NCBI GenBank assembly: GCA_027398005.1
Contig: DAHYUM010000009.1
Coordinates: 1-34,853 of the forward strand
Direction of reading: 5' to 3'
DNA: 34,853 bases
Source of the DNA: a bacterium
Lineage (GTDB): Bacteria; Bacteroidota; Ignavibacteria; Ignavibacteriales; Melioribacteraceae
In this document: positions 29,572-34,853 of the stretch, piece after piece
Numbering within the stretch: the first letter of the stretch is position 1
Layout: every line of letters begins with the position of its first letter
Notes under the pieces: generated by a model
Told to the model about the DNA's origin: nothing
The model's input: only the letters and a program-made list of their open reading frames with translations
The model's database searches: none
Translations under genes and position numbers: made by a program

Positions 29572-32500
29572 TCACTTTGATTCAGATACCCGGCAAATCG
29601 GTTTTAAGCCGCAATAACAGCAAACTATGGAATCTCTCTTAGGATTTTGCGATAAATTAAACTTTCCTTCAGATATTTCGCTTACATATTTAGCTATAAA
29701 CAGCCTGGCCTGTTTAATAAGCTCGCCGGTTAATGCCGCTTCGTCGTCATCTTTTTTCGATTTTAAATTAACTTTATCGGGCCCGAAGTCACCTTCGCTG
29801 AATTTAAGGGAATAAATAACCATTTCCGCCGGCACTAGTTTTTCGCTGTAATTATTAAACAGAATCTGCTCTGCCGCGGCAAGGTAAACCGGAAGCTGAA
29901 GCGATATGCCTGTCCACAATTCATCCTTGGTAGGTTTCTTTCCACTCAATTTATAATCGACAACCCTTAAAAATTTATTCTCATCATCAATTTCAATCCT
30001 GTCAATTTTGCCCTTTAATTTAACCCCTTCCATTTCAATTGAAGAAGTATCCTTAATTGAGTTATCGCTCCCCTCTTTTTCAACAAACCCGAAAGGCGTT
30101 TCAAAAAACTTAGGCTGATAGCCGTCCTTATTTTCTTTTTCGTGCATAAGGAGTTTGAACAGTATTGAATTTACTTTATCCCCCTTAATACCCAGAATTT
30201 TCTCTTTTTCGAAGAAATTCAATGGCGACGAAAAAGGCATCTCGTTTATTTCGTTTTCGGCAATCTCGAATAATTTAACCTTTGCCGCGGCAAACTGCTC
30301 TTCGGTACAGTCGTTCAGTTTAATTCCGTTATTCCTCAGGAAAGTAAAAAACTTATAAAACACGGAATGGAGCAGGTTGCCCATTTCAACCGCTTCAATT
30401 TCTTCGGAAGGTTCCTCTTCCGGTTTAATATTCAAAACCCGTTCGGCAAAAAATTTGAAAGGGCATTTGGCATAAGTTTCGAGCTGTGAAATAGAATACT
30501 GCTTATTCTTAAGCACGCCGAATTTTTCTTCGATAAGCTCTTTAACCGGCGCGGCAATATCGGAATTGTTAAGATCCACATACCCTGTATAAGGAGAAAG
30601 AGAATCCTCTCCGGCGCTCCTTATTTTCTGTACTTCGGAAGCCTTGTAAAAATAGTCTTTATCAAATTCCTCCCCTTCAAGTTCCGGAATAAGGAGTTCA
30701 TCTTTAACCTTTGCGGCAACAGTTCCAATCAGCTTCTGAATCTCTTCATTAGAATACACTTTAGAGGCGAAATAAGATTGCGGAAGAAGAGAAACATCGA
30801 ATAGGCGTGTAAACTCCTTAAGAAAGCTCGATTCGTTTAGCTCGCGGTTCGATTCGTTAAGGGGGGCCGATAAATAGAGCCGTTTATTAAATGCGCATAA
30901 CGATTGGTAAAAACGGTATCTTTCCTCAATTAAATGAGTCTCTTCCTGTTTCTGAAACGTGCCTGAATAAAAAATCTCGGGTTGATAGCGTGTGGGCAAA
31001 TCCCCGTCGCACAATCCGCCAATAAAAAGATAATCGAATTCAAGTCCTCTTATTTCCTCAAGGTTAGTAACCAGCACGGCGCTATCCGACTTTTCTTTAA
31101 CATTAAACCGGGCATGGCTTGCCGATGTTCGCATCTGGTCAAGGAAGAAAGATATAGGAAATTTTTTCGCGTCGCCGCACTGAACGGCCAGAAGGTTGAA
31201 TACTTCCTTAAGCGTTTCAAGAAAAGTTGTAACGGCTTTAATTTCCTTCTCCTTTTCGGCGCTTAATTCTAGTATATGGAAAGGGATATTGAGTTCGTAC
31301 ACCATTAATTCAAACTTTTCGAGGAATTCACCAATAGTAAGTTTCCCTTCGAAAGGCTTTAAAATTGAATGAATTGCCTGAATACTTTCCAGGGCCGAGG
31401 TGAAAGTTTTAATTTCCGAATCTTCCTGTTCATCGGCATTCTTATATTTTTTTCTTTCATCAACAGCGTTTTTAAGCATGGCAATCCAGTTTTCGCGCCC
31501 CCCTATAATCTTAAGCTCAATAGCCGATTTGAGAATGCTCTTCAGTTCAATCCCTTTGCCCGCAAGCACGTTGCTGCTGAATGCCCTGATAACATTCTTA
31601 AAATAATAATCATTCTCCAGAATTTCGAGCAGGTTAAGAATAGCAATTATAGGGGCAGTATATTCCAGATATACACGGTCTGTAAGGTTAAGTGGAATTC
31701 CGTAAACCGAAAAGACCTCGTTAAGCACGGGGGAATAATTCTGCACAAGATTAAAAGCCACGCAAATTTTATACGGTTCGGCATTCTCTTCAAGAATAAG
31801 TCTTTTTACTTCCTTTGCAATATTTACAATTTCCTCTTCACGGGTAAATGAATCGAACTTAAATAGCGATTCCTTAAACTCATTAATTCTTTTTCCCCTG
31901 TATTCCGAGAAGAGCTGTTCCCTGATAATTTTTTTGAAGCGGGAATTATTCCCCGATTCATTTTCCTTAATTTTAACGAATCCTCTTTTTTCAAATTTAT
32001 CGTACGTTTTATCGAGGTGGGCAAACAAGCCGCTGTTGCCTGCATAATAATCGAACTGGAGAAGCAGTGAGAGGCTCTTAATTTTGGCAAGGCGGTCAAC
32101 AATTCCGGCTTCCGGCCCCGTAAATTCATCGAAACCTTTAATTAGAATTTCTTTCGCATCGGGGAACACTTTTTTAAAATACTCCTCAAAAACCTCATCG
32201 GTCAATCCATTCAAAGCCGAATAAACATCCCCCGCCTCGAATGCGGCGAGGGAAATGGTTTTAAGCAGATAATTCTCATAAATCGAGGCGATATCGAGAG
32301 CTTTAAGTTTTTCCGAGTGGGGCAGTTTTTCGGCTTCCCCCCTTAGAACATCAGGAGTAATCCCGTTCCTTTTATACTCCGAAATTACGCTCCTTATCCT
32401 GTTAAGTGTTCCGTTCGGAATTTCCCCTTTATAGGAGGAAAAATAATTCAGTTCCGTTTCTGAAACCGCATGGCTAAGCAAAACAGCCGAGGGGGCTTCT

Positions 32501-32742
32501 TCAAGGTTGACGAATATAGTGCTTACTTCCAGAATTTTTGAGCAGAGCGATTCGAAAGTCTCAAGGTTCAATCCTGTTACACCCTTTCCCTTGAATGCCG
32601 AAATAATCTCCTTCTTATAGTCCCTAAGTTTTCTGTTAGTAGGAACCACGAGCAGAAGTTCTTTAAGCTCCCCTCTCTCTAAATAAGAGGAAATAATGCT
32701 TTCAATATTAACGGCGCCCCTGTTTTGCTTTGCCAGTATCAT
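29572..32742 (-). CDS. AddB-like PD-(D/E)XK nuclease/helicase-type protein with Fe-S cluster cysteines
   Basis: This 1056-aa protein resembles AddB/RexB, a subunit of the recombinational repair nuclease. The N-terminal half is a helicase-like scaffold; it begins ELLLVVPTNRKLRDYKKEI with no visible Walker A. The middle has LVTNLEEIRGLEFDYLFIGGLCDGDLP, like UvrD-family motifs. The C-terminal nuclease has QLETYAKCPFKFFAERVLN (Cys760), GKIDRIEIDDENKFLRVVDYKLSGKK (catalytic D-DYK), LQLPVYLAA, and a final CX2CX5C (Cys1041, 1044, 1050), matching the spacing of AddB 4Fe-4S ligands. No AddA-type helicase is in the window. The ATG overlaps the CYTH gene stop (ATGA). Confidence 0.88.
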   Translation of the reverse strand: MILAKQNRGAVNIESIISSYLERGELKELLLVVPTNRKLRDYKKEIISAFKGKGVTGLNLETFESLCSKILEVSTIFVNLEEAPSAVLLSHAVSETELNYFSSYKGEIPNGTLNRIRSVISEYKRNGITPDVLRGEAEKLPHSEKLKALDIASIYENYLLKTISLAAFEAGDVYSALNGLTDEVFEEYFKKVFPDAKEILIKGFDEFTGPEAGIVDRLAKIKSLSLLLQFDYYAGNSGLFAHLDKTYDKFEKRGFVKIKENESGNNSRFKKIIREQLFSEYRGKRINEFKESLFKFDSFTREEEIVNIAKEVKRLILEENAEPYKICVAFNLVQNYSPVLNEVFSVYGIPLNLTDRVYLEYTAPIIAILNLLEILENDYYFKNVIRAFSSNVLAGKGIELKSILKSAIELKIIGGRENWIAMLKNAVDERKKYKNADEQEDSEIKTFTSALESIQAIHSILKPFEGKLTIGEFLEKFELMVYELNIPFHILELSAEKEKEIKAVTTFLETLKEVFNLLAVQCGDAKKFPISFFLDQMRTSASHARFNVKEKSDSAVLVTNLEEIRGLEFDYLFIGGLCDGDLPTRYQPEIFYSGTFQKQEETHLIEERYRFYQSLCAFNKRLYLSAPLNESNRELNESSFLKEFTRLFDVSLLPQSYFASKVYSNEEIQKLIGTVAAKVKDELLIPELEGEEFDKDYFYKASEVQKIRSAGEDSLSPYTGYVDLNNSDIAAPVKELIEEKFGVLKNKQYSISQLETYAKCPFKFFAERVLNIKPEEEPSEEIEAVEMGNLLHSVFYKFFTFLRNNGIKLNDCTEEQFAAAKVKLFEIAENEINEMPFSSPLNFFEKEKILGIKGDKVNSILFKLLMHEKENKDGYQPKFFETPFGFVEKEGSDNSIKDTSSIEMEGVKLKGKIDRIEIDDENKFLRVVDYKLSGKKPTKDELWTGISLQLPVYLAAAEQILFNNYSEKLVPAEMVIYSLKFSEGDFGPDKVNLKSKKDDDEAALTGELIKQARLFIAKYVSEISEGKFNLSQNPKRDSIVCCYCGLKPICRVSESK

Positions 32743-34569: not shown

Positions 34570-34600
34570 TTTATTTTAATGAATATACTGATTCTATTTT

Positions 34601-34620
34601 CCGTCGGCTTAAGCCGACGG
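34601..34620. repeat. Palindrome copy 1
   Basis: CCGTCGGCTTAAGCCGACGG: an 8-bp GC-rich stem with TTAA in the centre. Confidence 0.95.
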
Positions 34621-34714
34621 CAAGTATAATAAAATTCTAATCAAAATATCTTTAACTTCATGAATTTAACAATTCAAAATATTCTGATGATTTTTGAGGC
34701 ATAATCTACAATTC

Positions 34715-34734
34715 CCGTTCGCTTAAGCGAACGG
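34715..34734. repeat. Palindrome copy 2 (covarying)
   Basis: CCGTTCGCTTAAGCGAACGG: relative to copies 1 and 3, stem pairs 5-16 (C-G to T-A) and 6-15 (G-C to C-G) both change with full compensation. Confidence 0.95.
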
Positions 34735-34831
34735 CAAGTTTAAACTAAATCCAATTTTATCATTCTTTAGTATTAAGTATTAGGCAAATCCAGAATATTT
34801 AATGTTTTTTTTGCGGCATTATCTTTAATTC

Positions 34832-34851
34832 CCGTCGGCTTAAGCCGACGG
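34832..34851. repeat. Palindrome copy 3
   Basis: CCGTCGGCTTAAGCCGACGG, identical to copy 1, 2 bp from the window end. Confidence 0.95.
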
Positions 34852-34853
34852 CT

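Follow-up and report, generated by a model that had tools for sequence, protein, structure and literature searches.

The window, a stretch of 34,853 nucleotides that makes up the whole of contig C337, ends in an array of palindromes that is, judged by sequence comparison, very probably a decayed cluster of REP-like elements that belong to a little-studied Y1/HUH transposase (TnpA_Y1 subclass 1.2). The association of such hairpins with genes of this transposase in related bacteria, the anatomy of the hairpins and the covariation of their stems are established by comparison across genomes. The recognition and cutting of the hairpins by the enzyme would follow the pattern of better studied relatives. 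The window copies themselves are orphans, as the source assembly (2.93 Mb in 337 contigs, 87.6% complete) contains no cognate gene.

Three perfect palindromes of 20 bp occupy positions 34601–34620 (CCGTCGGCTTAAGCCGACGG), 34715–34734 (CCGTTCGCTTAAGCGAACGG) and 34832–34851 (identical to the first), with start-to-start distances of 114 and 117 bp, in agreement with a first, sequence-only reading of this DNA. A chance origin is rejected: with up to three mismatches allowed, the window has three matches to the palindrome, where dinucleotide shuffles give 0.01. Hairpin 1 (CCGTCGGC-TTAA-GCCGACGG) has an 8-bp stem and a symmetric loop, with a predicted DNA folding energy of -10.2 kcal/mol (z -5.5). 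Hairpin 2 (CCGTTCGC-TTAA-GCGAACGG; -9.3 kcal/mol, z -4.9) is changed at stem positions 5 (C to T) and 6 (G to C), and the opposite arm compensates both changes, as had been noticed at the outset. Hairpin 3 ends 2 nt before the end of the contig. All loops are TTAA and therefore of TTNA type on either strand; given this symmetry, the orientation of the window hairpins rests on their feet only. These are of two kinds. On the right, tabulation of feet gives CAAGT on the plus strand, at 34621–34625 after hairpin 1 and at 34735–34739 after hairpin 2 (the family consensus is CAAT, of which CAAG is a variant). On the left stands AATTC, i.e. GAATT on the minus strand, at 34710–34714 as the second foot of hairpin 2 and at 34827–34831 before hairpin 3, where it was read from the sequence and is of the type found at other copies. 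Hairpin 1 has a right foot only, and the right foot of hairpin 3 would lie past the contig end.

The hairpins delimit two overlapping units on the plus strand, which have hairpin 2 in common: one of ∼134 bp at 34601–34734 and another at 34715–34851. Their flanks are diverged and related, as first described (self-alignment score of 40.5 versus a shuffled maximum of 18.5), and the units are direct repeats, 75–82% alike in their best-matching part. With hairpins intact and spacers drifted, the window copies look, from their sequences, like old members of the family. The array had been called open-ended; it does reach the contig end, but the contig simply stops there at an assembly break, so that open-endedness does not follow. 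The preceding ORF, a putative beta-barrel gene of that first reading, has no Pfam match, and no transposase gene lies beside the array in the assembled contig. An intrinsic terminator was considered and rejected, since the stems are not followed by a T-run and no terminator was called at the array.

Copies outside the window were sought with the pattern CCGTNNNCTNNAGNNNACGG, in which the inner bases are left free, and with the reversed pattern as control. The sequence-only reading depended on further copies in the genome. The search finds 17 copies, in six intergenic arrays on C144, C284, C293, C300, C327 and C337, versus none for the control. Those arrays that were examined lie within or beside gaps between genes. 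Local alignment of the two-hairpin unit identifies diverged copies on C300 (score 66.5, shuffled maximum 29.5), C293 (62.5 versus 26.5) and C327 (63.0 versus 24.0), and weaker relatives on C144 (41.0 versus 23.0) and C284 (38.0 versus 27.5); BLAST aligns window positions 34591–34737 with C300 at 72% identity. A BLAST match on C330 was dropped, as no palindrome of the window family is found there. On C284 (locus L041, about 1540–2240), a 298-bp segment that carries CCGTCAGC and CCGTCATC hairpins forms a tandem repeat, with partial copies at the end. Among 97 genomes, the pattern is present in 29, that of the window included, with up to 46 copies per genome and control patterns near 0.

These copies bear on the simplest account of the window, in which a local segment of 115 bp that contained a palindrome by accident was duplicated in tandem. 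The direct repetition of the units would fit this, as would a symmetric-type array with spacings of 107 and 108 bp in Dyadobacter fermentans (L226), which lies directly beside a transposase gene. Yet related units stand at other loci of the genome, outside the window, and the spacing recurs in other genera, which makes simple duplication very improbable as the whole explanation.

The stems of the palindrome family were compared over the matches to this pattern. The pattern left the three inner pairs free and so did not impose pairing at these positions. Within the window's own genome, Watson–Crick pairing holds for 50 of 51 inner pairs, with several different bases involved; in relatives, the three inner pairs are Watson–Crick in 62, 51 and 74 of the 75 matches listed. 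Over 47 distinct sequences, 51 double-change cells are counted versus a mean of 18.6 in shuffles, none of 500 shuffles being as high, on the understanding that the shuffles ignore relatedness; the signal is destroyed when the partner columns are slid. Mismatched stems occur in some relatives (e.g. CCGTCTGCTTTAGCTGACGG). Collectively, the inner stem pairs of the family covary, and the covariation that the sequence-only reading had glimpsed in one copy holds for matches in the window's genome and in relatives. Neither outcome that would have counted against that reading, a lack of further copies or of covariation, was obtained.

The link to a transposase comes in part from a scan of GTDB genomes with the transposase subclade of the window's hairpin type (described below) as query, which yielded 80 loci in Ignavibacteriales, Melioribacteraceae, Balneolaceae, Chitinophagales, Flavobacteriales, Bacteroidales, Dyadobacter, Pedobacter, Gillisia and others. 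Hairpins with stems of at least 8 bp and a TTNA or TNAA loop occur at 2.09 per kb within 500 bp of the gene and at 0.0098 per kb beyond 1 kb, a difference of ∼200-fold. Where at least 300 bp are available on each side, 61 of 69 loci have such a hairpin and 27 have it on both sides. The loop preference does not depend on the filter: without it, 159 of 170 nearby hairpins still have a TTNA or TNAA loop; of the 256 possible four-base loops, 7 would fit. Genomes with a close transposase also have more copies of the palindrome (at least two copies in 7 of 9 genomes versus 11 of 88; Fisher p 7e-5). Among the 13 genomes with at least four copies, seven, including that of the window, are without a close transposase. 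The highest number, 46 copies, was seen in genome G089, which has no close transposase of the clade and a single weak Y1 match.

Accordingly, the proposals made from the window alone are upheld in part. The evidence favors a REP/MITE-like family with a RAYT-type enzyme as partner: further copies exist, inner stem pairs covary, and hairpins and their asymmetric feet track the Y1 transposase gene in relatives. The same tracking leaves partition or recombination sites and repeated structured RNAs without support; the latter were rejected in the absence of any Rfam family at gathering score in the window. A further possibility is that the repeats, now unlinked from any transposase, serve the host at transcript ends, in mRNA stability or in protein binding; selection acting on RNA or on a dyad-binding protein would then maintain the hairpin. 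This would suit copies that are intergenic, adjoin gene ends and keep perfect stems despite diverged spacers, and whose cognate gene is absent from the assembly. It is nevertheless unlikely: the array lacks the T-runs and terminator-like sites mentioned above, compensated variation of the stems would be unexplained by a fixed protein site, and hairpins of the window type are concentrated near transposase genes in many lineages.

Hairpins at transposase genes have a recurrent architecture. Their stem is exactly 8 bp long in 128 of 145 cases. A foot NAA[TG], mostly CAAT, is found 3′ of the TNAA-oriented hairpin in 199 of 248 cases and on the other side in 22; viewed on the opposite strand, this corresponds to a 5′ ATTG foot with a TTNA loop, which is the REP orientation. 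A mini-hairpin, GGCTNAAGCC, accompanies 90 of 143 hairpins at a distance of 17–29 nt on the 5′ side and six on the other side, with 0.009 expected from distant sequence, and is present at 46 of 62 loci. It was not found at the window copies, where the feet are also variants. When the two nearest hairpins are both directional, the gene lies between a reverse (R) and a forward (F) hairpin in 23 of 36 loci. Outward pairs (R then F) near genes are spaced by 95–119 bp in 19 of 30 cases, which matches the period of the window array; inward pairs are mostly separated by 41–78 bp.

This architecture also bears on the covariation. Template switching is a known mechanism for imperfect palindromes, and copying of one arm onto the other in short palindromes could generate compensated changes by mutation, with no selection on the hairpin. 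Such events could plausibly occur in very short, perfect palindromes. However, arm copying alone would fix neither the stem length, nor the asymmetry of the loop (mostly TTNA), nor the one-sided foot, and it would account for covariation and not for the transposase link. It is an unlikely explanation, and REP-like elements of a transposase are the preferred one.

The partner proteins have the HUH motif, the YxxxQxxHH signature and a length of ∼150 aa that characterize subclass 1.2, an assignment made by motif and not by the published clustering. Among the Y1 genes of 29 genomes, YxxxQxxHH is found in nearly all full-length strong matches. With NCBIfam models, the proteins are identified above cut-off as IS200/IS605 transposases; they also match IS608 TnpA (2a6m, E 1.5e-11), with which the transposase is grouped by sequence. 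In a tree of 65 proteins, 25 subclass 1.2 proteins form a clade (support 100/98), and, with hairpin labels assigned by eye, TTNA or TNAA flanking hairpins accompany 23 of these 25 and none of the other 40. The CCGT...ACGG hairpin type of the window lies within one subclade of eight (starred), two members of which have CAGT...ACTG. In a larger protein tree, the CCGT and CAGT classes change 11 times, so that proteins and hairpin types correspond loosely. Outside the TTNA clade, subclass 1.2 genes (L140, L112, L097, L098, L130, L154 and L151) are flanked by other palindromes. In L140, for example, GAACTGCGAACGCAGTTC occurs on either side of the gene, as does TTACTCC..GGAGTAA in L112; more REP-like classes may therefore exist.

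The genome of the window has a single Y1 transposase gene (PF01797, contig C66), which was rejected as the partner because its flanking hairpins differ. This gene (L057, 1300–2120) is flanked by a double hairpin in direct copies, AACCGTTGAAACGGTT followed by ACCCGCGGTTAAAACCGCGGGT, which has the two-hairpin plan of the window family with a different sequence. A cognate gene of the subclade was not found in the window's own 87.6%-complete assembly; it is either lost or situated in the missing 12%.

A mechanism can be proposed from the relatedness to IS608 TnpA and from the published biochemistry of IS608 and TnpA_REP. When the DNA becomes single-stranded, e.g. on the lagging strand, the hairpin would fold, and the transposase would recognize it in folded form through the TTNA loop and the stem. 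The foot would guide the cut, as published REP work attributes a guiding role to the tetranucleotide next to the hairpin, and the catalytic tyrosine would cut and rejoin the strand, so that the two-hairpin unit moves into intergenic sites. For the window copies, with their symmetric TTAA loop and with feet that can lie on both sides, one hairpin could serve as the end of two neighboring units. Such sharing could explain the even spacing of ∼115 bp, with tandem duplication as a possible further contributor.

Subclass 1.2 is listed without REPs and generally without terminal structures of IS200 type (Quentin et al. 2018, PMC6006769), and no later report of REPs in this subclass was found in the open-access literature, the scope of the search excluding subscription papers. 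The clade described here agrees with that subclass in its YxxxQxxHH and HUH motifs, its length of ∼150 aa, its occurrence in Bacteroidota and its low copy number, and departs from it in having well-defined flanking hairpins. It thus appears to be a REP/RAYT system of a novel type. As in such systems in the broad sense, short palindromes are dispersed between genes in many copies per genome, and they flank a Y1 transposase gene in relatives, though not in the genome of the window.

Like REPs and REPINs with their RAYTs, which are GTAG-tagged and form inverted pairs at 71 and 110 bp (Bertels and Rainey 2011, PMC3116915), these are short intergenic palindromes with a foot next to the stem and a repeat-flanked gene, and the outward pairs near the genes (95–119 bp apart in 19 of 30 cases) may correspond to the inverted pairs. 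Unlike them, they have a CAAT/ATTG foot instead of GTAG/GTGG and low copy numbers (up to 46); their transposase belongs to class 1 rather than class 2, and a second mini-hairpin is present, the core of which is invariant. An unpaired GT[AG]G at the 5′ foot is lacking, the consensus in that orientation being ATTG, and YxxxQxxHH stands in place of the YxxxNP motif of RAYTs (TnpA_Y1 class 2). CGTC-tagged REPs (Di Nocera et al. 2013, PMC3733652) share stems of 8–9 bp, loops of 4–5 nt and presence in Bacteroidetes, among other phyla. Their CGTC tag is unpaired and no transposase is linked to them, whereas here CGTC, if present, lies in the stem and a transposase is linked. As neither defining tag is found, the window-type hairpins fall outside both the GTAG and the CGTC families. 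Elements of the IS200/IS605 family (IS608, ISDra2) likewise combine related Y1/HUH transposases with hairpin ends; the present genes differ in their low copy number and are at most putative mobile elements in intact form, and no insertion or excision event was observed.

A parallel in the loop is the Marinomonas TnpA, which in SELEX requires TTNA with a free third base (Corneloup et al. 2021, PMC8266576). REP_Mb of Marinomonas also has a perfect stem, which differs from the present one in being 5 bp long, with a GTAG foot 2 nt away and a group 3 RAYT. The occurrence of this loop in a distant REP system suggests that reading of the loop is ancient or has been put to use repeatedly. It is tempting to go further and to regard the subclass 1.2 clade as a Bacteroidota-wide REP system with two-hairpin ends, in which a constant mini-hairpin (GGCTNAAGCC) is joined to a larger, lineage-variable stem, both with TTNA-type loops, and in which the larger stem sets the elements recognized by each transposase; this generalization is reasonably probable.

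REPs, together with the transposases that go with them, provide some of the best examples of mobile DNA settled in host genomes, and the link between REP sequence and enzyme is an open question. The present findings suggest an overlooked variant of this known kind of bacterial mobile DNA. They add to REP systems an IS200-like (class 1) group listed without REPs, together with its hairpins, feet and second hairpin, and they offer many natural protein–hairpin pairs for testing how recognition evolves. Elsewhere in the window, positions 29572–32742 encode a protein of 1056 aa that matches AddB N-terminal, UvrD C-terminal and PD-(D/E)XK nuclease domains and is a probable recombination nuclease–helicase subunit.
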